Shown here one piece after another: positions 28,193-63,953 of a stretch of DNA of 64,000 nt (the first letter of the stretch is position 1; each line of letters begins with the position of its first letter). The notes under the pieces were generated by a model. The model did no database searches, was not told where the DNA came from, and saw nothing but the letters and a program-made list of their open reading frames with translations. The stretch is taken from assembly GCA_033064195.1 (NCBI GenBank), contig JARBJD010000047.1, positions 248,001 to 312,000 on the forward strand, read 5' to 3'. This DNA comes from Blattamonas nauphoetae. Taxonomy: Eukaryota > Preaxostyla > Oxymonadida. A program made the translations under genes and the position numbers.

Positions 28193-28249
28193 CGTCTGTG
28201 AAGTGGACGACTCCAAATAATGAATCACCATTCCCGTCCAAAAAAAGAC

Positions 28250-31200
28250 TCAATTCTTTGGTATTTCGGGACCCGGAAGTTTTCTCTTTCTGGCAAGATC
28301 CTCCTTACTTCCCACTTTGATTCCGGAGTGGTTCTGAGAAGTGCTTTGTTGTTTGCGATTTTGGTCAAGTGCATTTCTTCGATCCTTAATTTCCTGACCT
28401 ATGTCACGGAGATGATCGAAGGCGAAAGTGAAGTTGTGAGTTAGATATTCCCGGAGTTCACAAAAGGTTTCGAGACACTTCGCTCTTTCTGCTTCCAACT
28501 TGTCGATGTCCACAGGATTTTCGTTCAGGAGGCTTCGGAAATAGCTATATTCCACAACGCCGATGATCGAACTCACATACTGCATGGCGTTCAGAACATC
28601 TCTCTCCTCTCTAGTCTTATTAGCATTTTCGTTCATCGGCTGATAAGGTGCACAGAGGATTGGTCGCGTCAGAGTTGTCGCTGGGAGATTCATGGCCAGT
28701 GAACCAAAGAAGTCAAAAAGCGTCCACGCACGGTTAAGAAGGAGAGGTCTCTTTGTTACAAGAGTGTCTCGATGCACACGAATTGGCGCGGCATCTATGA
28801 TTTTCTCCCGATCTTCCTTGTCGGTGATGCCATTGAGTGCTGCGTGCATATCATACACAGGTCGATTCACTTCTTCATCGAGCTTTTTCAGCTCTGCTTC
28901 CATCTTAGATATTTGAGAGTCTGGTTGCTCAGCTTCGATCATGGAGAGTGAGTGCTTCCACTTCCATACCAACAATAAATCCATGTTCAGATTGTCCTTG
29001 TCATCAGACTCAACATTACATACTCCGAAAGAGGAAAGGCGACCATGAACAGCCGTTCTTTTACACATCAGCAGAGTGACAAACGAGCGGAGTGTCGGCT
29101 GGCTATCGAAGATCCATTTCAAGAACAACTCCATCTTGCCCAGAACTATGTTCAACGTTGTGAGAGAGAACCCGAAGTATTTGACGAACTGTTCCTCGGA
29201 CATGTCTGACAGGAACAGCATCTGCCACAACAGCTCCAGTTCTTGCTGGATCACAATCAGACAACATTTCATCGCTGTTTGTGAAACCGTGGGTTCAGTG
29301 CCTGGGAGAGGTTCAGTGCGGAGAGAAGGATGCACATCTGGGAACGACCACCGAATCCTCTCCCGCAACTCATCGACCTGCTTGAATGGAAGCATCATCT
29401 GTCCCAGGAACTTGTCCGAATCAATCAGAAACGGCGAAGGCTCTTCGTCTTGAAGTCTTTCGTGGGGTTTGAAATCAAACGGTTTACCAGAGTACGTCAG
29501 GTCATCTTTATCCAAGAGGATCCAACACCGGCGTGCCCAAGCTTCAATCAGGTCCGCCATGACCATTGTGCTTGTTGGCAAGACACTGACTCTGTTCCTT
29601 GACGGGGGTTGGACAAATTGTTCTTCTTCCGGTTCCTTCAACGGTTCGTGTTCCGGTTCCTTCAACGGTTCGTGTTCCGGTTCCTTCAACGGTTCGTGTT
29701 CCGATCCGCTGCTTTCTGGAACATCTGGTACGTGGGGCTTGCCATCTGAAAACTGCAGCGAGTACATATCAACCACCCCCTCCTCGCGAGAGGCTGAAGC
29801 GCTCCCAGATTGAAGCTCAGCTGAATGCTCGTCAGCACGTCGCGGCTGTTCTGGGAAAAACGGAGTGCGGTACAGGTGACACGAGTGAGGTAGTGGACGA
29901 CACATGCTGACTGTGACTGCCATCGACAGCGGCTTCTCGGGCTCAGTCTCTCCAAAGCTGTCTGTCAGCAGGGTCTCCTGAAGTGACTTATTCTTCTTTT
30001 CTGGCTCTGGCGTTCCTTTCACCTGTGCACTGGGCGGCACCTGGCTATCGTGTTCATTCTGCTCGTCAGGTAGCTCCACTCCATCCTGTTCGTCCAGTGT
30101 TTCCTTGCCATCTTGGGCATCCTCTTCATTGTGTTTGTCAGGTAGCTCCACTCCACCCTGTTCGTCGAGTGTTTCCTGACCATCCGCTTCACCCTGTTCG
30201 TCCAGTGTTTTCTTGCCATCTTGGCCATCCTCTTCTTTCTGTGCGCTGGGTGGCACCTGGCGAGCATGTTCATCCTGCTTGCTGCTTTCCTCGACAAGTG
30301 GCACCATCGTCACATTCATCAAGAGGAACGTGAAATGGTTCCCCGACTTTTTGGCATTGGGTCTCGTCTTGTCTGGGCACGGGTACGACACTTGGAGCCC
30401 AACTGGACGTGAGTCCGAGGGTGGGTCTGATGGTTCCGATTTTACGCCCTCATCACCTCTTTCTTTGAGCGTCTTCCGCGTGTAGAAGAACGTTGGGTCT
30501 GTTGTAACGACAATGTCACTCGTCGACTTGCCCATCTTCTTGCTCATTTCGGGTTCGTTCACGAAGAGCTTGTGTGCCTTCGTTGGGTCGAGCAGCTGTT
30601 TGTGGAATTCCAGACTGGTCGAACCGTGGTACACTTCAGCGCACATATGATCAAAGAAGTTGTCTCTCATCACTTCCCCGCAGAACCCACACCGCACACA
30701 CATCTCGTCATTGTTCGGCAGGAGTCGCTTCCCAGTGTCCAGAATCAGTGTGTCCTCTGTTTCGATGGTGACTGTGCCGATCGTGTCTTTTGTCGGTGTG
30801 GTCAACGCTACCGTCACAATGTTTTCTTCCGGAATGAATGTCGTGATGGCATTCCCTACATTCGGTGTAAAGTCATCGAACATGCTCTCCGACACCACAA
30901 ACTGGAAGTGTGGGAAGATCAGGTTTGGTGTCAACTGGTACACGTCCATCAGCAGAACCAGCCACGACATCATTAGATTCACCCCGACTTCACTGATATC
31001 GTGCTCTTCTCCGATCGTCGACTGCAGGAAATGGACAGCGAGCGAGTGGACCATGGGGGGTTTCCTGTAGATGGGGACCATACGGAAGAACAACAAAATG
31101 GAATCGAATCCCGCGTTATACGTTCCAAGCGGCACGAGGTGGAAGGTGTAGTAGTGGAAGGTGTAGTGGGAGGTGTCGGGGGAGGCATCGGAGGAGGTGG

Positions 31201-33833
31201 CTTGAGTGGCCGATCGTGTAGATTGTTCAGGTTGGCGCTGAGCAGCGGTTTCTTTATCCGTGAGGATTCGTTGTTCGTTAGAGATGAACACAAACTTCCC
31301 GTCCTTCAGCTCAACTGGCCCTCTCGCGAAAGGCTCGCCTTTCATGTGATGCTTGAAGTATCTGCCCCACTTGCCTTCATCCAATAAGTTCTTCCTTGAG
31401 CATTTGAACAATGACATGTCGGGAAGGAAGGCGTGGTGCGTGTTGCATGTCCCGCTCGAGTCCACTGCACTTCGCATTGGTGTTGGAGGAAACGAGAATG
31501 GCGTCCTGTCTTCACGGGCAACGGGTCTTCTTCCGATCTTCATTCTTGAAAATTGTGCTCCCACTCGAATAGCGTGGTGGGTCAGCCGTTGGAAGAGCAT
31601 GGGGAGCATGTGGCTGCGGAGTTTGGTCAACAAATCCTTTTTGTCCACCCCCTCCATGAAGTACTGGTACTGGCCCTTCAGCTTCTCCGTCCATTTCTCT
31701 GCAAGGATCTTCGCGGCTTCCGGCGATGCGTAGGCCATCGTGAAGTTGTGCGGGTCTGCTTGCGGGCTGTCCAACACAATGAGCTTGTGACTGATCGACT
31801 GTCCAAACACATCTCCGCTCACTTCCACATTCTCTGCTAGCTGGATCAGATTTTTCAGCTTCTTGCCCTTCCGCACATAATCCAGCACGTTCCGCGGAGT
31901 GAATCCGAGAGTTTTGATAATCACTTTGAGTTCGTCAGGCAAATCTTGGTCAAATTCACCGAACTTGCAAGGAATGGCATTCAACATGTTGATTTCCTCT
32001 GCGAGGGTGTATCGCGGAGACACATACAGCACAAGCGGGTACAGCGGCTGTTTTTCGGCATTGACAACTTCTTTCCAACGTTTCTGATTTGGCGACGTCA
32101 GAAGAACATAGTGCTCGGAATCATTCAAACTGTCAGGTGTTAAGATGAGACTAGGCAAACAAACAGAGCAATTCAAAGGAGAAAGAAACACACTCGTCAA
32201 CGAAATGCCACTTCTTGCCTTCAAGAGGGTTGCGGACTTGGTCCAATCGATCAACAAACAGACGAAGGAAATGAGGGAAGTGGTGGATGCTTGGCACTTC
32301 CACTTCCCCCAGCTTGATGGAGGGTGCATCTTTTCTTTTAGAGAGGTCTCTGCTGTAGATTAGGTCCGAATACACCACACCGATTTCTCCTTTCACTTCC
32401 TCCTCCCCACATTGCAAATCCACTTGTTGGGGCACCTGAACTTGTGCTTCGTAGAGAAGCACTTCATACGTGTAGGTGGTTGGTGTGATGGGAACGTCCC
32501 GTGGAGGCTTATTCACGTGCGCCACTCGCATTGTCGACCCCGTGGCGGCAGGTGCTGGAGTTGCTGGACCAGGAGCGTCTGATGCTTCCGTGACAACCGA
32601 ACGGTTCATAGGAGCTGGACCTTGGTTGATACTTTTAGGCGGCGAGCCAAAAAAAATGCGTGAAAGGATCACCTTTGTCGTTGTCTGCGTTTGGGCTGGC
32701 GAGCCCCTTTTCCTCGTTCAGGGGAGTTGCATTCTTGTTAGGAGTAGGAGTCTTCAACATCGCATTCGCATGGAGTTCCTTTTGTGCTGGGGTTTGTGTG
32801 AGGTGCGGCTCGGAGTGCTGGAGGGAGGTTGTTGATTGACGTTGCTCATCTTTCGCTTTTCGGACAAATCTCAGTGGATATTCATTAGCCTTCGCTGTAC
32901 ACACTTCCTGCAAACATAAACAAAGCAAAAGACACAAACCTCCGCACCAAGACTCAGCGCCAGCGCGATTGCGGGGAATCTAAGCGCCGATTTTCCGATC
33001 CCTGGCGACCCAGTGACCACATGTATCATCGGCTGAGTGTTCTGATTCTTACATTTTTGAGCAAACTTCAGGGAATTGTACAGAATGTGGCTCAGCAGAG
33101 AGAACCACGACGGACGGAACAGGATGTCTTTCAGTTCCTGGTGCAGATTTTCCGTGTTCCGATAGCTGCCAACAGTCTTCATCATGAACTTGGACGAGTC
33201 CAGATGCATGATTCTGCTGGGCCGCTTGCTGTAATTCGGAAACTCACTTTGGCTCAAAGGGCCGAACGACGAGTCAATTGCTGCCAAGATGTTTCGTGCA
33301 ATATGTGGGAGGGCTTGTTTCAACATCTTACCACAGTTGGCACTGCCAAAGTCAGGGAGTTGTTGAGGGGGTTGAATTGCAGGATGCGATCCATCTGGCC
33401 ACGCGAAGGTCATAATCACAAGAAATTGAGGGGGCTGTGATTGAGGAGTAGTCTCACAATGCTCAAATAGATCCTTCAGGCTGATTGATTTGCCAATTTC
33501 ACTACGATTCAGCAGTTCGCCACTCTTCAAATCTTGTGCCCAAATCTGCTTCCATTTGACTGTGTTTGCATGTTGTTCTGTATATTGTCGTCCGAACCAC
33601 CTCAAAAATTCTTGTTTGGTTGCCTCAATTGAGAAACTATCGGCAAAAGGCATAAATAATCGGATTGGAGTGGGCGATGATTCAGTCGTCTGGAACAGCA
33701 CAAATACCACATTGCTCGTTTCATCTCGCAGCGTGGATTCATATACTGTAGGTGGAGACAATACAGGGGCGTCCATATCCAATGGTACGATTTCTGCAGA
33801 TTGTTGTTTTGAAGACATAACGATCGGTTCCAT
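28250..33833 (-). pseudogene. CR-type (Crinkler/RHS-like) NTPase, unit 2
   Basis: The most complete copy of the family. The start is the ATG at 33833 (MEPIVMSSKQQ), a position conserved in the other units. Introns lie at 32908-32939 (32 nt) and 32152-32194 (43 nt). The product is about 1830 residues. Residues 35-120 may form a ubiquitin-like header. Walker A GSPGIGKS is near 275. The Walker B-like WHFVDD near 535 is built across intron 2. LLTSPNQ near 550 and LYVSPRYTLAEE near 575 resemble RHS and Crinkler ATPases. YTFHLVPLGTYNAGF is near 870 and a Cys/His motif CVRCGFCGEV..DHMC near 1020. A repetitive acidic linker precedes a helical C-terminus with AWTLFDFFGSL. The copy appears nearly whole, with about one break. 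Function is unknown; an NTPase of the STAND type is inferred. Confidence 0.65.
29629..29700 (-). repeat. Three 24-bp tandem repeats inside the CR gene
   Basis: CCGGTTCCTTCAACGGTTCG plus TGTT is repeated three times without change. In the gene's frame it encodes EHEPLKEP repeats within the acidic linker. The same array occurs in unit 3 (about 49962-50036). Units 1 and 4 lack it, so it arose after the split of the 2/3 lineage. Confidence 0.85.
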
Positions 33834-33942
33834 TGTTTGTACCAAAATGATGAACAAGGATGGCCTGATTCTTCGAAATCGAGTCAGACAACGAAGCTCG
33901 ATCAAGAGATTTCGTGTGCAATATATCTGTTTTGTCAGCTTT

Positions 33943-34560
33943 TCAGCTTTTTTGTGCCCCATCCCACTTCCATTCTCTGTACTCCATTCTCATGAAATCG
34001 CTGTCGACTCCGAAGTCTTGACATTTATCGAAGACACCACAATGCAAGTTAAAGGACCAAGGCTTCACGGACCTGAACGAATGAACTGATTCTTTAGCGG
34101 TAATGAAGCTAGGTCTTGTATCTCTGAAATTGCGCTCCAAATCCGGAGCTGAATGAGGAAATGTTGGGAAGTCTCTCATTGCTGGCTTCTCCCATCGCCA
34201 CGCGGGGTTGAACGTGGGGACATTCAAAAGAAGGACTGTGAGCGTCGAAAGTCGCTCCGATTCGAAGCTCGCAAATGACTCAGTTGTTCAATGGGAACAG
34301 ATGATTCGGCAAGTTGGTGTGGCGAAACGATGTTTACCGGAAGCTATAATCTGTTCTCTCAAGCTGACCAATCGGATTTCGCAATCGCTGCTGCCCTCCG
34401 CAAGAGTTTGGGAAGTCGCGATGAATGTCCACTCCGTGTGGAAAATGTGGTTTGGCACGATGTTGTGGTTGTTTGTATTCAGAAGCAAGACGAGTTGGGA
34501 CATTCTCAGCTCTTTTTCTGCTTGTATCCATTTTCTATGAACTCTTTTGGAAAGGTCTGA
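33943..34560 (-). other. Unassigned ORF fragments upstream of CR unit 2
   Basis: Protein-like minus-strand segments occur upstream of the CR start: one with VPTFNPAWRWEKPAMRDFPT and HSAPDLERNFRDTRPSF, another with NIVPNHIFHTEWTFIATSQ. They are in the same frame class but separated by a stop, and are duplicated unchanged at 45163-45723 in unit 3. They may be exons of a second gene in the unit or a long 5' leader. No family is recognised. Confidence 0.3.
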
Positions 34561-34729
34561 TTATCGTTGTGAGAATAGAACGGAGAACCTTGTTCATAAT
34601 TGTAAAAGAGATCCACCCAGTTGGAGAATCATGATCGAAGGGAATGGTGAATGGTTTGCACCGTAATCAAGAGGTGAGTGGTTGTCATGAAAAACGGAGA
34701 TTCCAAGAATAAATAGAACCCGAAAGACG

Positions 34730-35721
34730 AAACGATAATTCAAAGACAAGTGAAAATCGAGCAATGTACTAACGATGTGGTTTGTTGTTTTGGTGTTCTC
34801 CAAATGTGTCTGTCGTTTGGTCTTTGTCACTTCCTGCAAACATCGCAGAATCGGTGAGTCACACTCGCTCCTCGTTCATCCCAGCCTGCCTGTAATATTC
34901 CCATTTCTGAGGGATGCCCTCACAAACAGCAAGTTTGTTGCTCACTGTTCTTTGCCCACTTCAGTCTTGACTTCCTTATCCACTGTTTCTGGACCCTTTT
35001 CAGAGTGTTGTTCCCAATGTTCTAAGGAAAGCTCCTTCTTCACACCTTCACCAATAATTGTTCGGAATTCCTTTCCAATGTTCATTCTTTGTCAATATTG
35101 GCGGGTTTTCGGTCGGCAAAGTGTTCTTCTGTTTGAATTCTGTGTCCAGTCAGTTTTGCTGTGAGCAGTGCCAATACACTTGAAACTTCTGCTTCAACCG
35201 CATCAAGATCTTCCACTGAATGATTTGCACGATCAGACACTGCTCGCAATTCATCCAATTCCCGCTCACATTCGAGTCACTCTCGTTCTCACCAGTCCAA
35301 AGTCTGGCCATCGTCATCCGAGCATCAAAAATGCTTCAATGGTGTGTGCGAAGGGAGAGATGGAACTGAAAAATGTTTTGTTGGATGAACCCGCATTTGA
35401 TGACATCGATTCGTTCTTCACGAGAGAGTCCATGATGAGATGTGAGACATCAATTGGTGCCGAAATACCCAGATCGTTTTCGACACCTACAATTTCTGTC
35501 TTCGAAAACTGACAGCAAACCTTTGAATAGCGTCGGCCGACGGTTGGAGAGCATCTGTTGGGTTCGTCGTGAACTGGTCAAAGACATGCGCCAAACTCGA
35601 ATTACGTTCGCCATGTGAGGTTCTTTTTCCGTCTGCTGTGGCAATAATTGTCACAACACGTGTCTTGAACTCAAATTGACGGGTATTGTTGAGTAGTGCT
35701 TTTCGTTGCTTTTCTTCCTCA
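34730..35721. repeat. 992-bp inverted repeat, right arm flanking CR unit 2
   Basis: Reverse-oriented match of 27201-28192. It carries the 3' end of a SPRY-type gene on the minus strand (a segment with HVFDQFTTNPTDALQPSADA and the TIEAFLMLG end), cut off at about 35721. It therefore places a partial second SPRY remnant on the 5' side of CR unit 2. Confidence 0.85.
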
Positions 35722-36089
35722 GCTTGGAAGTCGAAAACTGGAGTAGGCAAGTCTTGGACAACTGGTCATTTTGCAATAATGAGTTAAGATATCTGCGTAA
35801 AATGATGAGAATAAAAGAGAAGCATGTGAAAACATGATCAAATCACTGTGAATATAGATTGTCAGAACAAGTGTTTTGTCCTGATTATGAGTTTGTGGTT
35901 CAATCAAAATCTACTAAACAATTCAGAATGACGTCTAGAAGGAGAGACTATGGAAAATAATGTTGAGAAAAGAGTAAAAAATGGACAAAAAATGTCCAAG
36001 AGTTGATGCGAAAGATAGAAGTTCACCACTTCACCTAATATGAATGTAACAGTGATCAAAAAGCAAAACACCAAGTAATTTCTCATTAT
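35722..36089. other. AT-rich, nothing recognised
   Basis: AT-rich sequence beyond the repeat arm, without a supported coding frame. It may be the eroded interior of the half-element that follows. Confidence 0.4.
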
Positions 36090-37417: not shown

Positions 37418-39277
37418 ATGAACATTCCTATCTTGAATGCTGAAATGGTTCAGCAATGCGTGAAGGAGTCAATATCTGACACTATTACATCGATTCGAAC
37501 TCTGGCAGTCCAACACGGGTTTGGGATCATTATCGGGCAACAATACAAAATTACGGCAGGATTAGTCGTCATCATCCGATGTGAATGTGGTGGCGAGTAC
37601 AAATCACAGAAGGACCCGTCAAAGAAAGGCAGAAATGGAACAGCGACCAAGAAAAAGAACTGTCCATTTATGGTGAAATTAAAGGGAACCGACGCGACTC
37701 ACACACTCACCCCCACTAATCTAACTCACAATCATCCTCTTTCATTGGAGCCTAATGCATGGCATTCTTCTCGCATCCAAACAACAGAAATGAAAAACAA
37801 GTTTGAAACTCTGGCAAAATCACGAACTAAACCAATGAAAGCTCAACAATTATTGAGGAATGAAGAAGAAAAAGTGGAAATACGATGGAAAGACTATGCC
37901 AATTTTACACAGAAGTATTGGAAACAAAAAAAGGAGGGGAAATCAGATCAACAACTCGTGGTGGAGGAGGCCAATGAAAAAGGGTGGACTGTGGCCCAGA
38001 AGAATTTTGGCGACTCGCTATCCATGCTTTTCTTTCTTCCCAAGGAAGCACAACCATATCTCAACACCAATACTCTATTTCTCGCAATCGATACCACCTA
38101 CAAAACGAACATGAATGATTATCACCTTGTACAAGTGGTGGCAGTGTCACCAACTTATCAAACGATACCAATCGCGTTTGCCTTCATCAGCCAAGAGACA
38201 AGGAATGTGTTCGAATCTGTTCTGATTGAGCTCAAGAAGTTTGTGAGTGTCGATCCCAAAGTCATTATCACGGATAAAGATTATGCTCTCCGAGGAGCGA
38301 TCAAATCAGTTTTCAAGGACACTACGATTCTGCTCTGCACTTGGCATGCTACCCAAAGCGTGTTCGTGAAAGCAAGAACTCTCTTCAATCACGATGAGGC
38401 AACATCTATTGAAAAGAAAATGGAAGGCATTTTCCTCGAAGCTGATGTGCAAAAATGCGAGACACAATTCACCAATCTCATCTCGGAACTTGGAGAAGAA
38501 AGCCAGATGTCAGACTATCTGCTGACAAATTGGTGGGCACACAAAGAGATTGTATGTGCCTGCTACACAAAGCAATTCCATCGTTTCGGAACGACAACGA
38601 CAGGGCTTTGCGAAGGTCAACACGCGGCACTGAAATCTTTCCTGGGAACGGCCAAGTACAGTCTCAGTTCGGCGTTCAATCTCATTGTGCAACACACTGA
38701 GCTCCGATATCAGCGGGTTCGGACTCAGGAGACAACTGAACTTCTCAACTCACCGACGTTCACACGACAGACCAGATTGTATGATCATCTTGTGACAAAA
38801 ATCAGCTTTCGAGCACTAAGTTTGATCGAGACAGAAAGAAAAATCCTTTCCAATGATTCTTCATGTGAACAGTGTAGTCACGACATAACTTCCAGCTATG
38901 GACTTCCCTGCCGTTGCCAGATTACCAGATTCATGAAAAATGGACTTCCTCTTCCACTTGAAACGGTTCACCCCTGTTGGCATCTTCAAAATCGTGATGC
39001 TGTGACCAGACCGCCTCAGGAAGTTAATGCCTCCCAACTCTCCGACCTCGAGTCAACAATAGCTGAAATCAGAGCTGCAATCATCCCACAGCCAGCCGAA
39101 GACAGACGAACTCTCTTGGAGGAACTGAAAACTTTCTCAAGTGGTCTTCGGCAGCCGTCATCACTTAAAACTGGCACTCCAAGGAAGACACAATCAACCA
39201 AACGCTACCAAACGCTTGCCGAAAGAGTGCGTTCTCGAAGAATTGCGAACTCACCTTCTCTTCTTCGGAACAGTTAA
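37418..39277 (+). CDS. MULE transposase
   Basis: A 619-residue Mutator-like transposase that starts at the ATG at 37418, about 45 bp inside the TIR. The N-terminus has a FAR1/WRKY-GCM1-like zinc cluster (CECGGEY, KNCPFMVKL, THNHPLSLE). The catalytic region follows: AIDTTYKTN (first Asp), IITDKDYALRGA (second Asp), CTWHATQSVF (the C-x2-H motif), and TTGLCEGQHAALKSF (catalytic Glu). A SWIM-like Cys/His cluster (CEQCSHDI, GLPCRCQITRF, HPCWHL) follows near residue 490-530. No frame break is visible, so the element could be active. It catalyses cut-and-paste excision and insertion with 9-bp duplications, which matches the flanks. Confidence 0.95.
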   Translation: MNIPILNAEMVQQCVKESISDTITSIRTLAVQHGFGIIIGQQYKITAGLVVIIRCECGGEYKSQKDPSKKGRNGTATKKKNCPFMVKLKGTDATHTLTPTNLTHNHPLSLEPNAWHSSRIQTTEMKNKFETLAKSRTKPMKAQQLLRNEEEKVEIRWKDYANFTQKYWKQKKEGKSDQQLVVEEANEKGWTVAQKNFGDSLSMLFFLPKEAQPYLNTNTLFLAIDTTYKTNMNDYHLVQVVAVSPTYQTIPIAFAFISQETRNVFESVLIELKKFVSVDPKVIITDKDYALRGAIKSVFKDTTILLCTWHATQSVFVKARTLFNHDEATSIEKKMEGIFLEADVQKCETQFTNLISELGEESQMSDYLLTNWWAHKEIVCACYTKQFHRFGTTTTGLCEGQHAALKSFLGTAKYSLSSAFNLIVQHTELRYQRVRTQETTELLNSPTFTRQTRLYDHLVTKISFRALSLIETERKILSNDSSCEQCSHDITSSYGLPCRCQITRFMKNGLPLPLETVHPCWHLQNRDAVTRPPQEVNASQLSDLESTIAEIRAAIIPQPAEDRRTLLEELKTFSSGLRQPSSLKTGTPRKTQSTKRYQTLAERVRSRRIANSPSLLRNS

Positions 39278-40630: not shown

Positions 40631-40634
40631 TCGA

Positions 40635-50900: not shown

Positions 50901-51470
50901 CTTGTAACAAAGAGACCTCTCCTTCTTAACCGTGCGTGGACGCTTTTTGACTTCTTTGGTTCACTGGCCATGAATCTCCCAGCGACAACTCTGACGCGAC
51001 CAATCCTCTGTGCACCTTATCAGCCGATGAACGACAAGGCTATTAAGACTAGAGAGGAGAGAGATGTTCTGAACGCCATGCAGTATGTGAGTTCGATCAT
51101 CGGCGTTGTGGAATATAGCTATTTCCGAAGCCTCCTGAACGAAAATCCTGTGGACATCGACAAGTTGGAAGCAGAAAGAGCGAAGTGTCTCGAAACCTTT
51201 TGTGAACTCCGGGAGTATCTAACTCACAACTTCACTTTCGCCTTCGATCATCTCCGTGACATAGGTCAGGAAATTAAGGATCGAAGAAATGCACTTGACC
51301 AAAATCGCAAACAACAAAGCACTTCTCAGAACCACTCCGGAATCGAAGTGGGAAGTAAGGAGGATCTTGCCAGAAAGAGAAAACTTCCGGGTCCCAAAAT
51401 AACAAAGAATTGAGTCTTTTTTTGGACGGGAATGATGATTCATTATTTGGAGTCGTCCACTTCACAGACG
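44937..51470 (+). repeat. CR unit 3 (inverted copy of unit 2)
   Basis: A 6534-bp near-identical inverted copy of 28193-34729. Differences are scattered substitutions and single-base length changes. It abuts the truncated 5' end of the ARM/HEAT-like gene on its left. On the right it continues into the spacer shared with the SPRY gene family. Confidence 0.9.
45833..51413 (+). pseudogene. CR-type NTPase, unit 3
   Basis: Same architecture as unit 2: start at 45833 (MEPIVMSSKQQ), introns at 46727-46758 (32 nt) and 47472-47514 (43 nt), Walker A GSPGIGKS, FVDD strand, LYVSPRYTLAEE, CVRCGFCGEV motif, acidic repeats and helical C-terminus. It is broken, with about two breaks, at places different from those in unit 2, so the two copies decayed independently after duplication. 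It is treated here as a fossil. It lies tail to tail with SPRY copy B, with two nested TIR elements between them. Confidence 0.65.
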
Positions 51471-51793: not shown

Positions 51794-53302
51794 CTGTCAC
51801 TCCGACTTCCGGTTCTTGGGTCTTGTAACAAGGAATAAAGGGTGCGATCAGACAATACAGTCCTTTCCAAAAAGTTGATCAGGTGTTTCAAAAAGATGAC
51901 TGATCGACTGGATACCCTCGCCCACAATACTGATTTTCCTCTCCTGACCACTTTCCACCCCTGACTCACCTCTCGTTTTAGAATACCTAGATGGACAGAT
52001 AGTGACAAAAAAGATGGTCTGTCTTATTTTTCGCAAAACATGTGCACATTTTGTCGAGATTTTCTGACCACTTTTTTCATTCCAGATTTTGCTCTCATTA
52101 TTCATCTTTCTCTCCAGCAGAACAAAATTCTTAATTAACACACAATATTATTCGGTGCCCCGCATTTTCCCCACTGCCACAGTTGTATTCTCTGACCTGT
52201 CGATCACAATCATTCAGGGTCGACAATTTGATGTGTATGCGAGTTTATGGATTTTTCACGTCATTCATAATCTCAATCTCAGTCTATCGATCCTGGTACG
52301 AAAAACTATCTGGTAGTAGAAGGGACTATCAGCTCAAAATCAATCTTGAAACCCTCGATCTGATTGTCTCTCTCCACTGGATAGTAATCTGACTTTCACG
52401 AGTGTTCTATCTTACTCTTATCATCTTAGGCATTTATCTCAACTTGTTCCTGCAAATTGATCAGTTGTTCACAACTTCAAGATCGGAGCTGTTCACACCA
52501 TCAGAACACTGCCAATATCTCTCTGTAGACTCGATCACATCTTCTATGCATTTATCCTCTTCTCGAATTCTCTCATCTCGCTTTGTGTCGATGTTTCAAT
52601 CCGTAGTGATGTCACAACATCCCTTTCGTCAATCTCAGATGTTATGTCAGAGAATACAACTGTGGCAGTGGGGAAAATGCGGGGCACCGAATAATATTGT
52701 GTGTTAATTAAGAATTTTGTTCTGCTGGAGAGAAAGATGAATAATGAGAGCAAAATCTGGAATGAAAAAAGTGGTCAGAAAATCTCGACAAAATGTGCAC
52801 ATGTTTTGCGAAAAATAAGACAGACCATCTTTTTTGTCACTATCTGTCCATCTAGGTATTCTAAAACGAGAGGTGAGTCAGGGGTGGAAAGTGGTCAGGA
52901 GAGGAAAATCAGTATTGTGGGCGAGGGTATCCAGTCGATCAGTCATCTTTTTGAAACACCTGATCAACTTTTTGGAAAGGACTGTACATTCATTTAACTC
53001 CATTTCAGTTTTTCTCCACTTCACAAAACTGCAGTTCAGAACTTCTCAAATTGAATCAATGATTTATTGATCGGTGTTCAGCTATAGTTGGTGAGAACTG
53101 TGCCTTGCGAACCCATAATTCACTCCGATCATCCCCAAATTCAGACCTCACAACAGCTTTCACTTCAAATACTGTCCCTTGTTTCTCCTATCTCATTTTC
53201 GTAACTTGTTTCCCTTCAACATTAACCTAAATTCGCAAAACACCGACGATCTAACCTTACCTCAATTTGGCAAGACCCAAGAACCGGAAGCCGGAGTGAC
53301 AG
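51794..53302. mobile_element. 1.5-kb TIR element with 32-bp ends
   Basis: The ends CTGTCACTCCGACTTCCGGT and the inverse match with one mismatch over 32 bp. The sequence outside reads CTTCACCAA and AATAATTGTT. The uninterrupted paralogous site at 35053-35066 reads CACCAATAATTGTT, so the insertion duplicated only AA (a 2-bp TSD). No transposase is inside. A second element (51856-52986) is nested within it. Confidence 0.85.
51856..52986. mobile_element. MITE with 341-bp TIRs, nested
   Basis: The arms 51856-52196 and 52646-52986 are near-perfect reverse complements of 341 bp, ending TACAGTCCTTTCC and GGAAAGGACTGTA with TA at each border. The 449-bp centre has no supported gene. An older, truncated relative lies at 36090-36373. 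Long identical arms suggest recent origin. Confidence 0.88.
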
Positions 53303-53563
53303 AATAATTGTTCGGAATTCCTTTCCAATGTTCATTCTTTGTCAATATTGGCGGGTTTTTGGTGGGCAAAGTGTTCTTCTGTTTGAATTCTGCGTCCAGT
53401 CAGTTTTGCTGTGGGCATTGCCAATACACTAGAAATTTCTGCTTCAACCGCATCAAGATCTTCCACTGAATGATTTGCATGATCAGACACTGCTCGAAAT
53501 TCAGCCAATTCCGGCGCGCATTCGAGCAATTCTCCTTCCCATCATTCTAATGTCTGTCCATCG

Positions 53564-55028
53564 TCAGCCGAGCATCAAGATCGGTACAATGGTGTGTGAG
53601 AATGGAGGAATGGAGCTGTCAAATGCTTTGTGTGATGAACCTGCATTTGATGACAGAGGTTCGTTCAGAACAAGAGAGTCCAAGAAGAGGGGTGCGACGT
53701 CAATCGGAACCGAAATATCCAACAATTCGTCGATTTCTTTGATTTCACTCTTCGAAAACTGAAACCAAACTTACGAATGGCGTTGGGCGACGGTTGGAGA
53801 GCATCTGTTGTGTTCGTCCGAACTGATCAAAGAAATTCGGCAAACTCGAAGTACGTTTGCCATTTGTGGTTCTTCTTCCTTTTAGTGGCAACCACAGACA
53901 CAACACGCGCCTAAGTCTCAATTTGTTGCAGGTTGTTGAGTCGTGCTCTTCTTCGTCGGGATTCCTCAGTGTGTGAGTCAAGATAACGGTCGTCTGGCAT
54001 TTCTTCCATTTGCACTGTTGTTCCAATCCTTCCTCACTGCGCTTGATGTCTTAATCCTTCGAATCATTTCTACTAAATCCATCAAATCAATCCTTCATTC
54101 GATGGACGATTGAAAAGACTTGCTCACTCTGAAACGGGTCTGATTCAGCATCTGTCGGTGGACTCCTTTGTTCGCAGGCGAGAGGATTCCACGCATTGGG
54201 GGTCATTGCCTGTTCGAGAGGACTGCATTGTTTTGGCAGACAGATGCACTCCCTTTTCGGTGAGGAATATCATTTTCCCGTCCTGCTCTCCTCTTCTGAC
54301 ACCCTCGATAGGACGGCAGAGGATATCGCATGCAGATTCACATGTAGTGGAACGAACGGAATATTTTGGTGCGGCACGCTTGCCATTGAATTCCCCCCAT
54401 TTGTGTCGATATTGATGTTGGTTGGGAGAGGCGTGAAATGGTGTCAGTTCGGAGGGATGTTCCTTCTCCAATGACAGAGAACTGAAGATCGAGACAAATG
54501 AGAGAAAAGTGAATCAGACTCCAATTCGCACTCATGAAGGAAGTCCTGATACGTACCACATCACAGCCTCACCATTCACAAATAATTGCACAGTTCGAGG
54601 TGTCGAGTCAAGATCAACTTCCATTCGAACATAATCTCCTTCTTTCAGATGAGACTGGCTAGGTGGACCTGAACGGGATGTTGGAGTGTTGAACCAGAGA
54701 TCACCAGATAGGTTGAGACCGACAGAGTCTGGGAAGATGAGATCAGAGAAAAACAGACTTTTGATTTGAAATCCAAGTGCTTCACCAATTTGAGGAATCG
54801 GAGTATTGGAGTCCATCAAAATAAAGCAAATTGCACCGAGTGATGCTGAAGACGATGACAGGAATAAATCACACTTGGAAGCGAGAGGACGGTCATAGTG
54901 ATTGAGACAATTTCAGACGTGAATTGGTCGGAAAGAAGAGCATAGCTCCAAACTTTATATTTATCGTCATTTCGACCACAACACTTTCGGTTGCAAACAG
55001 GGTGTTTGAAGGAGAAGAGATGGTGCAA
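53564..55028 (-). pseudogene. SPRY-domain gene remnant, copy B
   Basis: Minus-strand copy of the SPRY gene. Segments include DQFTSEIVSITMTVLSLPSV, DSNTPIPQIGEALGFQIKSL, VRMEVDLDSTPRTVQLFVNG and, after a short intron, FAVIGEGTSLRTDTISRLSQ. A TGA interrupts the reading just after YVSGLPS, so the copy is not functional as written. A 3' block ends TIVPILMLG at 53564 after a candidate 16-nt intron (53759-53774). It points at CR unit 3 tail to tail. Confidence 0.7.
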
Positions 55029-55286
55029 AGTGACTGCATGAAGACGGGAAGCAGTGACTGGATGGAGGGCTATTCCTCTTCATCTGCTCGGACATTCCAA
55101 AACTCATATAAAATGCGATTGGTTTTTTGTTATAGGTCGTCATCTTTTTGTGACAGTCTGTATCGATCGATTCCATTTGATTATGTTGACCGTTAATCGC
55201 ATTATATGTGAGATTTGGAACGTCCGAGCAGATGAAGAAGAATAGCCCTCCATCCAGTCACTGCTTCCCGTCTTCATGCAGTCACT

Positions 55287-56749
55287 TTGCACCATCTCTT
55301 CTCCTTCAAACACCCTGTTTGCAACCGAAAGTGTTGTGGTCGAAATTACGATAAATATAAAGTTTGGAGCTATGCTCTTCTTTCCGACCAATTCACGTCT
55401 GAAATTGTCTCAATCACTATGACCGTCCTCTCGCTTCCAAGTGTGATTTATTCCTGTCATCGTCTTCAGCATCACTCGGTGCAATTTGCTTTATTTTGAT
55501 GGACTCCAATACTCCGATTCCTCAAATTGGTGAAGCACTTGGATTTCAAATCAAAAGTCTGTTTTTCTCTGATCTCATCTTCCCAGACTCTGTCGGTCTC
55601 AACCTATCTGGTGATCTCTGGTTCAACACTCCAACATCCCGTTCAGGTCCACCTAGCCAGTCTCATCTGAAAGAAGGAGATTATGTTCGAATGGAAGTTG
55701 ATCTTGACTCGACACCTCGAACTGTGCAATTATTTGTGAATGGTGAGGCTGTGATGTGGTACGTATCAGGACTTCCTTCATGAGTGCGAATTGGAGTCTG
55801 ATTCACTTTTCTCTCATTTCTCTCTTTTCAGTTTGCTGTCATTGGGGAAGGAACATCCCTCCGAACTGACACCATTTCACGCCTCTCCCAACCAACATCA
55901 ATATCGACACAAATGGGGGGAATTCAATGGCAAGCGTGCCGCACCAAAATATTCCGTTCGTTCCACTACATGTGAATCTGCATGCGATATCCTCTGCCGT
56001 CCTATCGAGGGTGTCAGAAGAGGAGAGCAGGACGGGAAAATGATATTCCTCACCGAAAAGGGAGTGCATCTGTCTGCCAAAACAATGCAGTCCTCTCGAA
56101 CAGGCAATGACCCCCAATGCGTGGAATCCTCTCGCCTGCGAACAAAGGAGTCCACCGACAGATGCTGAATGAGACCTCTCTCGGAGCGAGCAAGGCTTTT
56201 CAATCGTCCATCGAATGAAGGATTGATTTGATGGATTTAGTAGAAATGATTCGAAGGATTAAGACATCAAGCGCAGTGAGGAAGGATTGGAACAACAGTG
56301 CAAATGGAAGAAATGCCAGACGACCGTTATCTTGACTCACACACTGAGGAATCCCGACGAAGAAGAGCACGACTCAACAACCTGCAACAAATTGAGACTT
56401 AGGCGCGTGTTGTGTCTGTGGTTGCCACTAAAAGGAAGAAGAACCACAAATGGCAAACGTACTTCGAGTTTGCCGAATTTCTTTGATCAGTTCGGACGAA
56501 CACAACAGATGCTCTCCAACCGTCGCCCAACGCCATTCGTAAGTTTGGTTTCAGTTTTCGAAGAGTGAAATCAAAGAAATCGACGAATTGTTGGATATTT
56601 CGGTTCCGATTGACGTCGCACCCCTCTTCTTGGACTCTCTTGTTCTGAACGAACCTCTGTCATCAAATGCAGGTTCATCACACAAAGCATTTGACAGCTC
56701 CATTCCTCCATTCTCACACACCATTGTACCGATCTTGATGCTCGGCTGA
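55287..56749 (+). pseudogene. SPRY-domain gene remnant, copy C
   Basis: Mirror copy of B with the same TGA after YVSGLPS, so the damage predates the palindrome. An intron of 36 nt lies at 55796-55831 (GTCTGATTCA to CTTTTCAG). Later segments read NGKRTSSLPNFFDQFGRTQQ and, after a candidate 16-nt intron at 56539-56554 (GTAAGTTTGGTTTCAG), SKSEIKEIDELLDISVPIDV ending TIVPILMLG at a stop at 56747-56749. Copy A shares these blocks. The gene lies tail to tail with CR unit 4. The SPRY domain is a protein-binding beta sandwich; no catalytic domain is seen in this part. Confidence 0.7.
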
Positions 56750-57347
56750 CGATGGACAGACATTAGAATGATGGGAAGGAGAATTGCTCGAATGCGCGCC
56801 GGAATTGGCTGAATTTCGAGCAGTGTCTGATCATGCAAATCATTCAGTGGAAGATCTTGATGCGGTTGAAGCAGAAATTTCAAGTGTATTGGAAATGCCC
56901 ACAGCAAAACTGGCTCGACACAGGAAGCATGAAATAGAATACTTTGCCCAACCATAACACACCACTATTGGACAGAAATTGAAAGATCGTAACGGACATC
57001 AAACAATTCTTGGGGTATGAGAATAATGAACGTCCATTAGAACTTTGGGAACAAAACTCTGAAACGGCTCCAGAAACAGGGAGTATGTAAGTCAAGACTG
57101 AAATGGACAAAGAATTGTGAGCAGAAACATGCTGTTTGTGAGGACATTCTTCAGAAACGGGAATATTGCAGGCAGGCCGCGATGAACGAGGAACGAGTCC
57201 AATTCACCGATTCAGCGACATTCGCAAGAAGCGACAAAGACCAGACGACAGACTCGTTTGGAGAACACCAAAACAACAAACCACGTCGTTAGTACATTGT
57301 TCGATTTTCACTTGTCTTTGAATTATCGTTTCGTCTGTGAAGTGGAC

Positions 57348-58678
57348 CAGGGATTCTGGTGAGTAGATCATGAATGGTTGTCGAGACGTTATCGTGTATA
57401 ATTTTCCATTTTCCAACAAAAAGCGCTGATAAGAATCGGTATCATGTGTGAAATGCACCTATACGTCCTTTTCCGATATCCTCAATTCACAGGTTCAACC
57501 ATAATTCACATTTTTCTGATCAATTCTGAGTCGTTCTATTTCAACTTTTTTCGACTTTTGCTCTTGTGCAAATGGTTCACAACGGTTTTAAACGGTCTGC
57601 CATCCACTTATGACATTCATGATTCTCTTTTCATTGCACATTTCCTCAACGCAAATAACCTGAACTCGATCTCCTTCTTTTTTCTTTGATTCTCCTTCTC
57701 ATCTTGATTTTCTTTCATTAATGCCCATTTTTCTTTCATTTTTCGAAATTCATTTCGATAGGTGCATATCTTTCTCGGTTTTCAGGTCTCCAACTCATGA
57801 TTGTTGCCACTCTCTTCATGGTCATTTTATCTCTCTTCCGAGTTGTTCATTGAGTCTCATTCATGACATACCAGTCTTTTCTTGTCTCAATCCTACTTGC
57901 ATCCTCACAGGATCATCGTCCCAAACGCACCCCGATCTCACTCCGCCACATCCATTCGTTTCTGTCTCCTCTAACAACGACCAGTCTATTTTTACCTTTC
58001 ATAGGATTCACCACACATTTTTGAACCTTCATATGTGGATCCTTGTCGAAGAAGAGGTGTCCTTCTTCCAAGCACTCCTTAGAGAAGAAAAATCAACTAT
58101 GAATTTCGAAAAATGAAAGAACAATGGGCATTAATGAAAGAAAATCAAGATGAGAAGGAGAATCAAAGAAAAGAGAAGGAGATCGAGTTCAGGTTATTTG
58201 CGTTGAGGAAATGTGCAATGAAAAGAGAATCATGAATGTCATAAGTGGATGGCAGACCGTTTAAAACCGTTGTGAACCATTTGCACAAGAGCAAAAGTCG
58301 AAAAGGACTAGAAGAGAATGACAGAGACTTGGTTCAACTTCACTTGTCTTTTCTCCTCCATCACAAGCATCTGAGCCAAGTCTAGTGCATCTTCGTATTT
58401 TATTTCAAAAGTATCATCGGAAATTTCAATTTCTCTTCGAGAGGACCAAACTAATTTGAAATTTTGAAAAAGACCAATTTTTGTTTTGAAACTGACGCCG
58501 CTCCAGGCCTTCATTTTGCTCAATTTTTTCTCGGAATCAATATTATTCAAATCAAAAATCCTACTTTTTTTTAAAATGTATAAACTGTACCCTACATTGA
58601 GAACAGCCTTCTCTGTGATCTAGAAAACACCTGTTTTGACCGGGATCAGAAGGTTTGATCTACTCTCCAAAACACCTG
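57348..58678. mobile_element. Non-autonomous hAT-like element with 8-bp TSD
   Basis: The ends CAGGGATTCTGGTGAGTAGA and the inverse of CAGGTGTTTTGGAGAGTAGA match over about 23 bp with a few mismatches. An exact 8-bp duplication AAGTGGAC lies at 57340-57347 and 58679-58686. CAGG termini with an 8-bp TSD point to the hAT superfamily. The homologous site in unit 2 (near 28200) is uninterrupted. No transposase is inside. A minus-strand ORF at 58308-58550 has no recognised motif. Confidence 0.88.
57548..58304. mobile_element. Foldback repeat nested in the hAT-like element
   Basis: Arms of about 210 bp (57548-57766 and 58096-58304) are near-perfect inverted copies starting TTTTTCGACTTTTGCTCTTG. The 330-bp centre is pyrimidine-rich without a gene. 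It may be a separate MITE that landed inside the hAT-like element, or the element's own subterminal palindrome. Confidence 0.7.
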
Positions 58679-58731
58679 AAGTGGACTACTCCAAATAATG
58701 AATCTCCACTCTCGTCCAAAAAAAGACCCAA

Positions 58732-61700
58732 TTACCCTTCCATTTTGAGCACCTCCGTTTTTTTCTCTTCGAAAGGCACTGACAAACCTTCCATATCGGA
58801 TTCGGCGCTCATTAAATCGCTTCTTCTATTGTCCATTTGCCGACCCAAGTCCTCCAGGTGGTCGAATATGAAAGTGAAGTTGTGTGTAAGATACTCCTGG
58901 AGCTCGCAAAAGGTGTCGAGGCACTTCACTCTTTCCATTTCCAACCGTTCGAAGTCGATTTCGACGTCGACATCGTCGTCCGGAATTTCTTCTTTCAGGA
59001 CGCTTCGGAAATAGTTGTACTCCACAACGCCGATGATCGAACTCACATACTGCATGGCCTTCAGAACGTCTGTATCCTTTCTAGTCTTTAAAACTATGTC
59101 ATTCATCGGCTGATAAGGTGTGTCGAGTGTTGGTCGTGTCAGAGTTGTCGCAGGGAGAGTCATGGCCAGCGATCCAAAAAAGTCAAAAAGCGTCCACGCA
59201 CGGTTAAGGTAGTCATTTCGCTTCTCAATGAGAGTTGTTCGATGGGCAGACAATGGTGTGGCCTTGATGATCTCGTTCTGTTCTTCCTCGTCGGTGACTC
59301 CCTGCAGTTTGAAGTTCATTGTATACACAGGCCCGTTCACAGATGTATCAAGGTCTTTCAGCTCTTTCTCCATCTGATATATTCGAGGGTCTGGTTTCTC
59401 ATTATCAATCTTGGGGAGTTTGCCCTTCCAATCTTTCAATTCAAAATAGTTCAGAATGTCCCTGTCAGAAGAAGCAACACGAACTCCTCTGATAGCAAAA
59501 AGGCGAGCCGTAACAGCATTTGCTCTGGAGAGAAGCATATTGACTAATTTGTGGAAAGTCGGCTTGTTAGTTTTCGTGAACTTCAGGAGCAACTTCATAT
59601 TTTGCAGAATCATCCGCAGTGTGCCGAAAGAGAACCCGAAGGACGAGAAGAAATCTGGTTCGGTCATGTTGGGCAGATTCAGCATCAGCCAGAACAGCTC
59701 CAGTTCTTGCTGCATCACCATCAGACACTGTTCCATCACTGTATCTGAGCGTCCCGCAGCAGCTTGTGTGCGTGGGGGGAGGAGAGCAGGATGGATACTT
59801 GGGAACGATCGCCGAATCCTCTCCCGCAACTCGCCAACGCATCCGAACGGAAGCATCATCTGTCCCAGATACCGATCAATACCATTCAGAAAGGGCGAGG
59901 GCTCCACAAATTCCAGTCCTTCGTAAGACTTGAGAGAATCCGGTGTGCCGGAGTACGTATCCCCATGTTTCTTCATTGTGATCAACTTCCCTTCCATCCA
60001 CGTTTTAATCAGCACGACCGCGTTTGATGTGCTGGGTTCCATGCGACTGTGTCTGTGCCCTGATGGTTGATCGTCGGCTTTTTCTTGTCCTGCTTCGGAG
60101 GATGGGAGGATGGGAGGATGAAGAGGAATCGATTTCGGTTTTGGTTTCTTTGTAACTTTTGGTAAACTGAGTTTGAAAGCATCCGCGAACATCCCCTTGG
60201 CAACATCATTCACCCCCTTCTCGCGAGAGGCTGACTTGCTCCCAGCAAGAAGCTCAGCGGTGCGTTTTTGACCAGTTTGCGGTTGTTCTGGGAAAAACGG
60301 AGTGCGGTACAGCTGACACGGCGGAGGGAGTGGCTGATGTGTGCAGTTTGTGATCGTCATCGACAGCGGCTCCTCCGGCTCAGTCTCTCCAAAGCTGTCG
60401 GTCAGCAGGGTCAACCGAAGTGTCTTGATCTTTTCGTTTAACGCAAGCGTTCCGATCTGCTTTTCCCCGAGAGGTTCCACCATCGTCACATTCATCATCA
60501 GGAACGTGAAATGGTTCCCAGACCTTTTGGCATTTGGTCTCGTCTTCGTTGGGCACGGGTACACCACTTGGAGTCCAATTGGTTTGTCAGAGTGTCTGGT
60601 GGATGATTCCGATTCTCTGTCGTCATCTCTTTCCTTGAGCGTCTTCCGCGTGTAGAAGAACGTTGGGTCTTTTTTTGCGACAATGTCACTCGTCGACTTG
60701 CTCATCTTCTCGCTCCCTTCGGGTTTGTTCACGAAGAGTTTGTGTGCGTTCATCGGGTCGAGCAGCTGTTTGTGGAATTCCAGACTGGTCGAACCGTGGA
60801 ACACTTCATCACACTCATGATGAAAGAAATCCTCCAATCACTTCCCCGCAGAACCCACATCGCACACACATCTCGTCATTGTTCGGCAGGAGTCGCTTCC
60901 CTGTGTCCAGCATCAGGGTGTCCGCTTTTTCAATGCTGATACTTGAGATCGTGTCCTTTGTCGGTGATTTCAACGCGGCTATCACAATGTTTTCTTCCGG
61001 AATGAATTTCGTGATGGCATCCCCTATCGTCGGCGTAAATCGACTGAATACGTTCTCCGACACCGCAAACATGAAGTGAGGGAATATCTGATTGATCGTC
61101 AGTCGGTAGACGTCCATCAGAAGAACCAGCCACGCCATCATAAGATTGGCTCCGACTTCACTGATATCGTGCTCCCCTCCGATCGTCGACTGCAGGAAAT
61201 GCACACTCAGCGAGTGGATCTTGGGGGTTGGTCGGGGCTGGGGCTGGGGTCATACGGAAGAACAGCAGAATGGAGTCAAAACCCGCGTTGTACGTTCCAA
61301 GCGGCACGAGGTGGAAGGTGTAGTAGTGAAGGTCGGTTGGGGTATACTCTAATGATTCCTTGCGTTTGTTGTATCGAGGTGTATCTTTCTTTGGAGAGAA
61401 TATTTCCTCTCTGCCGGGGACAAATTGATACTTCCCGTCCTTCAGCTCAACCGGTCCTCTCATGGAAGCCTTCCCTTTCATGTGATTCACGAAGTATCTG
61501 TCCCACTTCTCCTCGTATTTGTTCTGATTCGAGCATTCGAACAAGTCCATGTCGGGAAGGAAGGCGTGGTGTGTGTTGCACGTCCCGCTCGAGTCCACTG
61601 CACTTCGCGTGGGGGTTGGAGGAAACGAGAATGGGCGGTCGTCCAGACGGTTTTGGAGCCCAACGATCTTCTGTCTTGAAAATTGCGCTCCCACACGAAC

Positions 61701-63953
61701 AGCGCTGTGGGTCAGCCGTTGGAAGAGCATGGGGAGCATGAGGTTCTTGAGTCCGGTCGCTGTATTCTCAAATGTCGCCCCCTCCATGAACAAATGATAC
61801 AGCTCATTCAGCTGTGCCGTCCACTTCTCTCCAAGGATCTTCTCAGCTTCAGGCGATGCGTAGGCCATCGTGAAGTTGTGCGGGTCTGCTTGTGGGCTGT
61901 CCAGCACAATCAGCTTGTGGGTGATCGACTGCCCAAACACATCTCCACTGACTTCCACCTTGACGGCGAGTTTTTTCAGATCATCCAGCTCCTTGCCCTG
62001 CCGCACGAAATCCTGTATGTTCCGTGGAGTGAATCCGAGAGTTTCGACGATCCGGCAGAGTTTCTCATTCATTGCTTCGTTGAATCGGCCGAACTTGCAC
62101 GGAATGGCATTCAGCATGTTGACTTCCTCAGCTAGTGTGTACCGAGGAGACACATACAGTACAAGTGGAATCGGCGACTGTTTTGCTGCTTCGACAACCG
62201 GTTCCCAACGTTCCTGGTTTGGCGACGTCAGAAGCACATAGTGTTCTTTTGGATTCAATTTGTCTGGAAGCAAGACGAGACTAGCGAAACAAAAGGAGCA
62301 ATGCAGAGGACAAAGAAACATACTCGTCAACAATGTGCCACGTTGTCTTTTCAAGAGGGTTGCAGACTCGGTCTAGACGATCAACAAACAGACGCAGGAA
62401 ATGAGGGAAGTGGTGGATGCTTGGCACTTCCACCACTCCCAGCTTGATGCATTTTGCATCGTCCCAACTTACTTTGTCATCTTTGAAGACCGTGTTCGCA
62501 TACCCCTCAACGACTTTTCCCTTGGCATTCTTGTTCTCAGAACTCAGATTGATTTGTGGTGGTGTACTGGCTTTGTTTTCGTAGAGAAGCACTTCATACG
62601 TGTAGGTGGTTGGCGTGATGGGAGCGTCTCGCGGCGGCTTGTTTACGTGAGCCACACGCATTGTCGGCCCATTGGCTGCAGGAGCTGGGGCGGCTGGATT
62701 GAGAGCGTTCGGCGCTTCAGTGTCAAGTGAAGGTCTCGCTTGAGCTTGACAGTTTGGGAGATCCCTGGGAGGCGAAAAAACAGTGCCATTGAGAGGATTG
62801 TATGGGTCGTTGTCTTTGTTTGGGCTGAGCTCGTTGGGTTCTTTTGGGGAACTGTCATCATCTGCGAGAGGAGTATTCATCACCGCATCCACATGGGGTT
62901 GCGCTTTTGTTGGGGTTTGTTTGAGGGACTGTTCGGACGGCGGAGTGGAGGCTGATTGATGCTTTTCTTCTCTCGCTTTTCGGACAAATCTCAGCGGATA
63001 TTCATTCGCCTTTGCTGTACATACTGCCTGCAAACATCAACAAATCAAAAGACACAAACCTTCACTCCAAGGCTCAGCGCCAGCGTGATGGCCGGAAAGC
63101 GAAGAGCCGACTTTCCAATTCCAGGTGACCCTGTCACCACATGCACCATTGAACGGCTTGTACGATTGTTGTACTGTTGAGTGAACTTCTGGGAATTGAA
63201 CAGAACGTGGCTTAGCAGAGAGTACCACGATGGCCGGAACAGGATGTCTTTCAGAGGATGTTCCAGGTTTTCTGTATTCCGATAGCTGCCAACTGTCTTC
63301 AGCATGAACTTGGATATGTCCAGATGCATGATTTTGCTGGGCCGTTTGCTGTAATTTGGGAATTCGGATTGACTCAAAGGGCCAATCGACGAGTCAATCG
63401 CAGTCAAGACGTTGCGTGCAATTCTTGGGAGGATTCGTCTCAACTCTTTACTGCAGTCCGCACTGCCAAAGTTAGGGATCCGCTGAGGGCACAGAAATGG
63501 AGGATGCTTTCCATCTGGCCACGTGAACGTCATAATCACCAGAACTGGAGGGAGTTTCGACGGATTAGCATCCTTAGGAGACTGAAACAGTTGCTCCAGG
63601 GTCGTTGACTTGGCAATTTTAGAACGATTCATCAGTTGGCCACTGTTCAAATCTTGCGGCAAAATATCCTTCCACTCAACTAAGTTTGCAAGCTGCTCCG
63701 TATATTGGCGTGCGAGCCACTTCAAAAACTCACCTCTCGCTGCCTCAATTGAGAAACTACCGGCAAAAGGTAGAAATAATCGGATTGGAGTCGTCGACTG
63801 TTCAACGGTCTGGAACAGCACAAAAACCACATTGCCGGTATTGGCTTGTAGCGTTGACTCATAATTTGCATGTGTAGATGATACTTCAGCGTACATATCC
63901 AATTGTACGTTTTCTTTCGAATGACGATTTGAAGACTTAAAGATCGGACCCAT
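58732..63953 (-). pseudogene. CR-type NTPase, unit 4
   Basis: The most diverged copy. It starts at the ATG at 63953 (MGPIFKSSNRHSKENV). Introns lie at 63028-63059 (32 nt) and 62281-62323 (43 nt), exactly where units 2 and 3 have them. Walker A is GSPGIGKS, the Walker B-like strand WHIVDD, then LLTSPNQ and LYVSPRYTLAEE, the CVRCGFCGEV motif and the helical C-terminus ending with EEKKTEVLKMEG. The linker lacks the EHEPLKEP repeats. The start is about 45 bp inside the window edge, so upstream unit sequence is missing. The copy is broken, with about two breaks, and is treated as a fossil. Conserved intron sites and motifs across diverged copies suggest that the family was under selection before these copies decayed. 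Confidence 0.65.

Follow-up and report, generated by a model that had tools for sequence, protein, structure and literature searches.

The window examined here, a 64,000-nucleotide stretch of the genome of the oxymonad gut protist Blattamonas nauphoetae (C412:248001-312000; the genome comprises 88.3 Mb over 837 contigs), contains four copies, A to D, of a gene that we judge, with somewhat more confidence than doubt, to belong to a family of CR-like conflict proteins that the host itself encodes and that has expanded within its lineage. CR proteins, as described in sections of PMC5289972 and PMC11064341, consist of a header that is often ubiquitin-like, an NTPase, and a restriction endonuclease (REase) or other toxin; they are linked to mobile DNA and are thought to act on nucleic acids. 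The core of the Blattamonas family runs from a predicted ubiquitin-fold header through a P-loop NTPase to a block with the beta-beta-beta-alpha-beta order of an REase core and a zinc-knuckle-like C-x2-C-x10-H-x-C motif. According to the mechanism we favor, the header would recruit or deliver the protein, the NTPase would switch or move it, and the degenerate REase block would, together with the knuckle, bring it to DNA or chromatin. The effect itself would come from the variable C-terminus, either a helical array or, in some members of group III, an OTU deubiquitinase. The target could be invading or mobile DNA in the organism's own nucleus, or another cell.

The evidence that the core defines one family comes from profile-profile comparisons in which the sequences were split at the knuckle, the stretch before it being taken as the core and the stretch after it as the end. 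The cores of groups I (8 rows), II (3) and III (4) matched one another with HHalign probabilities of 100% (E 3.8e-51 for I-II, 1.6e-86 for I-III and 2.8e-45 for II-III), and on these alignments we regard them as a single family. The structure prediction for residues 1-1063 of P0010, together with the structural matches to that model, supports a ubiquitin fold for the header, in line with the possible ubiquitin-like header raised in an earlier note on this DNA. Alignment with relatives places this region ahead of the P-loop in copies B and C as well. Walker A was found in all 17 distinct units, and the P0010 model places a strand, the P-loop and a helix at residues 249-274. In the same model, the strand and helix order of the block after the NTPase fits an REase fold, the fold search having covered mainly the header.

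The REase-like block appears to have lost its catalytic residues. The active REase pattern of CifB proteins is E..D..ExK..Q (in the sections of PMC11342252 that describe it). Of 25 aligned rows (23 distinct), 17 have D and 8 have E at the Asp site; at the ExK site, 13 rows show Q-x-T and the other 12 show K-, N- or L-x-S, with Glu at its first position in 0/25 and Lys at its third in 0/25, the correspondence of residues being our own reading of the alignment rather than of a superposition. Because the catalytic Lys is missing from every row, the block is probably not an active nuclease; it is likely an REase fold that now binds DNA or partners. The active REase residues of CR proteins are thus absent, but inactive REase domains are known too, and catalytic residues are, therefore, not demanded of every member. 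The knuckle is present in 23/25 rows; the two exceptions, D and L028, break off before the motif is complete.

Unlike the cores, the ends match weakly or not at all. The end regions of groups I, II and III (8, 8 and 4 rows) gave HHalign probabilities of 64.8% over 68 columns (I-II), 86.3% over 181 (I-III) and 0.2% over 29 (II-III), and we, therefore, propose that the ends diverged or were exchanged. The C-terminus of copy B was modeled as all helices (mean predicted local distance difference test score, pLDDT, 60), with no match in PDB at E <= 0.001. The earlier note had called the C-terminal half unlike known effector ends; this is supported in part, the start of that half being probably a degenerate nuclease block. 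Pfam was run on P0012, L033, L035 and P0016-P0019 of group III, and OTU (PF02338) scored above the cut-off in P0012 (E 7.7e-8, 33.3 bits) and L033 (E 2.2e-7, 31.9 bits). The DGNCW motif with the catalytic Cys is present in P0012, L033 and L035, and the C-terminal His can be read in P0012 and L035, so that in some group III copies the tail looks like a ubiquitin-cutting enzyme. Several group III loci continue through the OTU region in the alignments and others end before it; DGNC occurs in no frame of the six group III ends examined, and an FGKQKR-like basic motif lies near the end in 5/6 of these.

Self-comparison of the window confirmed the four copies, far beyond chance, at the places reported earlier. 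That report's start and end coordinates left out copy A, which its text included, and its estimate of about a quarter of the window was too low, given that the copies span approximately 26 kb including the gap in A. Walker A and CVRCGFCGEV are indeed shared by all four copies, but not every string is exact (copy A reads LLTAPNQ where LLTSPNQ had been given), and the "VDD" strand is assembled only across the second intron. Copy A (3572-13492, plus strand) is split by 5.1 kb, its DNA matches stopping at 5984 and resuming at 11149. The 5' part (3572-5984), which contains introns, covers the header, the P-loop exon with Walker A and the remaining NTPase, with DNA matches of ~71-72% to B, C and D; the 3' part (10981-13492, with an open reading frame, ORF, from 10981) covers the REase-like block, the knuckle and the helical C-terminus. 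In gapped DNA alignments with B, copy A is ~69-72% identical across most of its length, and copy D (58732-63953, minus strand) is 76-83% identical in the better-conserved stretches and ~70% in the C-terminal part.

Copy B (28250-33962, minus strand) covers the entire gene. The closest protein match of its ORF is B. nauphoetae BLNAU_7741 (P0001; 100% identical across 96% of the query), which corresponds to the 3' part. Exon 1 (32940-33962), counted from the ORF start at 33962, encodes the header (assigned from the P0010 fold), a linker and the P-loop (Walker A, GSPGIGKS). Intron 1 (32908-32939; 32 nt, GT-AG) lies directly after the P-loop helix, and exon 2 (32194-32907) carries the middle of the NTPase as far as the Walker-B-like WHFVD strand. 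Intron 2 (32151-32193; 43 nt, GT-AG) falls within the Walker-B-like motif, and its junction agrees with P0001. Exon 3 (28250-32150) encodes the remaining NTPase (LLTSPNQ, YVSPRYTLAEE, GFTPR), the REase-like block (30695-31159; NAGFDSILLFF to HFLQSTIG), the knuckle (30641-30700) and the helical C-terminal region (28370-29572). Copy C (45704-51413, plus strand) has its introns at 46727-46758 and 47472-47514.

Both introns are GT-AG and hold fixed places in the family: intron 1 (31-33 nt) in 15/15 copies examined and intron 2 (39-46 nt) in 13/13. We read the family gene as spliced from these junctions. It follows from the two introns that the first ~60 residues of the 1359-aa copy B ORF used as a search query are not protein of this gene but intron or another frame. 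In all four window copies, the coding sequence is interrupted. Compared with C, exon 2 of B contains a frame change; compared with B, exon 3 of C contains several; and D has one TAG and one TGA within matched stretches. These flaws may stem from decay or from errors in long reads. Open frames of 1202-1370 codons, stop-free over the matched stretches, occur in six further copies of group I (L006, L009, L011, L012, L013 and L016). Usual CR proteins are shorter than those of this family.

The genome-wide count of units that had been suggested as a check was made with one protein from each of groups I, II and III, and the matches clustered into 76 on 44 contigs. Copy A and one C133 locus were each split in two, which leaves ~74 loci; this is a lower bound, as only 34/373 (group I), 30/303 (group III) and 31/238 (group II) first-look candidates were scored. 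Blattamonas was the sole source of matches in searches against 5.8 billion proteins (at E <= 0.001 in one search and E <= 10 in two, among the best ~8000 candidates by shared words); candidates had to share five-residue words, so that distant CR relatives would be missed. Viral-contig and genome-contig searches returned no relatives, and a sequence search of PDB gave nothing at E <= 10. The repeats TTAGGG and CCCTAA are absent from the six contig ends of C412, C29 and C9, leaving a telomere-proximal placement without support.

Selection was measured as the ratio of nonsynonymous to synonymous substitution (dN/dS, Nei-Gojobori) with copy B as the reference. Among the blocks compared, dN/dS is lowest for the REase-like block (0.30-0.43) in copies A, D and E, L006-L013 and L022, and the C-terminus gives 0.58-0.84. 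Exon 1 gives 0.42-0.59 where measured, with 0.40 in L029 (again copy A), and the partial rows L026/L028 give 0.51. No ratio is given for groups II and III, as dS has reached saturation in most of their blocks.

A number of observations weigh against the CR-like reading. The Pfam models of RHSP (PF07999) and Crinkler (PF20147), a comparison that the earlier note had proposed for the NTPase, matched none of 24 family proteins or pieces at E <= 10 and no window pieces at E <= 1, with HMMER filters that drop most weak matches. Nothing in the genome exceeded the cut-off for either, but the control genomes rang in neither, and absence is, therefore, not established; the Crinkler header PF20147 gave two genomic matches under the cut-off, the better at E 0.05, and both lie outside the listed units. 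The P0010 model has a mean pLDDT of 56, and Foldseek at E <= 0.001 returned five rows, all chromatin-remodeller AAA+ subunits (presumably RuvBL) with TM-scores of at most 0.2. The NTPase and REase block gave no clean structural match in VIA rows that span mainly residues 20-127, a confinement by which their silence on other folds says nothing. The loss of nuclease activity is read from an alignment; OTU is just under the cut-off in L035/P0016 (one locus) and without a Pfam match in P0017, P0018 and P0019. In L015, L016 and L017, in which dS is high, an NTPase block has a lower dN/dS (0.26-0.33) than the REase-like block (0.39-0.46). In a viral structure library, two rows reached E <= 0.001, but their TM-scores do not exceed 0.2 and we judge them uninformative; the library also gave weaker ubiquitin-like rows. 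The family has the predicted N-terminal ubiquitin-like header, the P-loop NTPase and the conserved core with variable C-terminal domains, in the order of CR proteins, but the Pfam RHSP and Crinkler models are silent. We, therefore, claim CR-like working and not membership of the class; the earlier proposal of a long branch of the RHS/Crinkler group is supported in part. The order of motifs after Walker B presumably resembles that of RHS and Crinkler proteins as well.

One could envision other explanations for the family. A more far-reaching version, tentative and in our view doubtful, is a large CR-derived arsenal: the nuclease would have turned into an inactive scaffold for docking on DNA, and swappable tails, including a deubiquitinase, would have taken over killing or defense. 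Such proteins would be the eukaryotic equivalent of CidB and might serve as selfish toxins or guard the nucleus against mobile DNA, and gene conversion would keep the near-identical inverted pairs alike. It is unlikely, but deserves weighing, that the proteins are instead STAND/NLR-like switches unrelated to the CR class, with an NTPase, a helical-repeat sensor and the header and OTU for signaling, engaged in self/non-self or virus sensing. The family is large and fast-changing, its sole modeled C-terminus is a long helical array, and the NTPase gave faint Pfam leads to AAA_16 (E 0.036), NPHP3_N (E 0.056) and nSTAND3 (E 0.078 in P0012 and 0.22 in P0015, both below the cut-off). However, these leads are far below the cut-offs; the P0012 nSTAND3 match spans only the P-loop (residues 22-51), that in P0015 lies before its P-loop, and the REase-like block sits between the NTPase and the helices, which is the CR order. 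Across the genome, nSTAND3 matches 22 places, one over the cut-off and none a listed unit. An ordinary multigene family with a cellular role, for example in regulating ubiquitin or chromatin, that grew by segmental duplication and is now decaying in part would account for core dN/dS values below 1, the introns, the clusters, the combination of OTU with a ubiquitin-like header and the broken window copies; we nevertheless hold this improbable, as no relative outside Blattamonas appeared among the best-scored candidates and the C-terminal halves differ between groups.

We consider it improbable that the unit serves as the cargo or the transposase of a mobile DNA element whose terminal inverted repeats measure ~1 kb, although the surroundings of copy B invite the idea. 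B is flanked by inverted arms (27190-28197, plus strand, and 34725-35732) that are 97-98% identical, transposases crowd the window, 9 of the 40 arm copies listed in the genome are within 3 kb of a unit (12 within 7 kb), and three inverted pairs are nearly identical. The B/C pair sits in an inverted repeat that is 6865 bp long and 99.7% identical (27868-34732 and 51793-44934); D pairs with E, which lies beyond the window (C412:317107-322780; 99.8-100% identity in the long matches); and a pair on C29 is 99.0-99.7% identical. On the other hand, 28 of the 40 arm copies are more than 7 kb from any listed unit, and the arms, which are genome-repeated sequence, adjoin the remains of another gene, related to the N-terminus of P0009; a simple inverted-repeat transposon was set aside for B on these two grounds. 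The B/C duplication stops inside one of the arms and at the border of the second, neither a target-site duplication at the B/C junctions inspected nor defined ends shared by units were seen (the B unit and its arm-copy list having been examined), and the gene is spliced with conserved introns. The spacers of the pairs (10.2 kb for B/C, about 2.6 kb for D/E and about 1.9 kb on C29) are unrelated, which argues against simple fold-back reads; misassembly may lie behind the pairs. A possible fourth pair, at C98:113053-117318 (plus) and 125699-130216 (minus), was seen in the hit list only.

The remaining observations concern the surroundings of the copies and individual relatives. An element with 240-bp inverted repeats (100% identical) abuts the 3' end of copy A at 13493-15969; its ORFs read like a helix-turn-helix/DDE transposase, and two of them given to Pfam had no match over the cut-off. 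Remains of a hAT transposase lie at 16345-18976 (Dimer_Tnp_hAT, E 4.6e-6 in 18440-18976), an ORF of 619 aa for a MULE transposase (E 3.6e-20) lies between B and C at 37418-39277, and two ORFs at 934-3599 match DDE transposases, one over the Pfam cut-off and one below. Relative to D, copy E carries an insert of ~520 bp (L004:3626-4145) with the 9-bp repeat CACATCAGC at its bounds and similar inverted ends, resembling a small DNA transposon. A 3.65-kb palindrome at 53331-56983, 96% identical to its own reverse complement, contains gene remains related to the P0009 N-terminus; a SPRY identity for the remains beside the arms was dropped because Pfam found no SPRY match in P0009. Shorter inverted repeats lie at 51856-52986 (341-bp arms, 100%) and 57548-58304 (206-bp arms, 99%), and at 40000-42243 one strand is strongly purine-rich and has an ORF with many Glu, Lys and Arg residues. 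Among the relatives, P0010 has a long SSEMGTNH tandem repeat between core and C-terminus, which holds the single PADLOC match and, with weak P-loop rows in P0013, the NCBIfam matches. P0019, a "serpin" by its source name, joins a Serpin domain (E 1.6e-45) and the family core in one protein and may be a gene-model fusion; P0017 matches DUF7881_N below the cut-off (E 0.0076).

If the CR-like reading is correct, so large an expansion in an oxymonad would broaden the CR class, which has been described from parasites, free-living eukaryotes and plants (in sections of PMC5289972) and whose related domains have been described from selfish elements (in parts of PMC11342252 and PMC12693581). It would also join a ubiquitin-like header, a degenerate nuclease block and a deubiquitinase in one eukaryotic family, with a logic close to that of the Wolbachia incompatibility factors. 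The paper on the Blattamonas genome (PMC10703272) has no "crinkler", "transpos" or "mobile element" in its main text, and a literature search limited to Crinkler and oxymonad terms gave no "crinkler" among the matches listed.

By domain layout, without a profile match, the family appears to work like a CR protein. It shares with the CR plan, as set out in sections of PMC5289972, the ubiquitin-like header, the P-loop NTPase and the REase-like block that follows, as well as many copies, diverse C-termini and a transposon-rich setting. It differs in that a knuckle and a long helical region follow the REase-like block, in the lost REase residues and the silent Pfam models, and in the OTU tail, which is absent from the CR domains given in section 11 of that paper. 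Trypanosome RHS proteins (Pfam RHSP) likewise have a P-loop, form a multigene family and lie near transposons, but PF07999 does not match the Blattamonas family. The nucleases of spore-killing genes of the Fusarium and Podospora type have also been linked by others to the CR class (part of PMC12693581). Medea1 of Tribolium (CR-NTPase8 and CR-REase7), likened here by its description in part of PMC11342252 and not by sequence, similarly places an NTPase before an REase in a eukaryotic genome with a mobile-element link, but is a selfish element with an embryo-killing phenotype. The nearest functional parallel, by analogy, is the CidB-type CifB of Wolbachia. CifB differs in having four REase domains and a partner, CifA, in being bacterial, and in that no NTPase is described for it in the relevant sections of PMC11342252; in CidB, as would be the case in Blattamonas, inactive REase-fold domains carry a deubiquitinase (Ulp1, or OTU in other CifB types; same sections).

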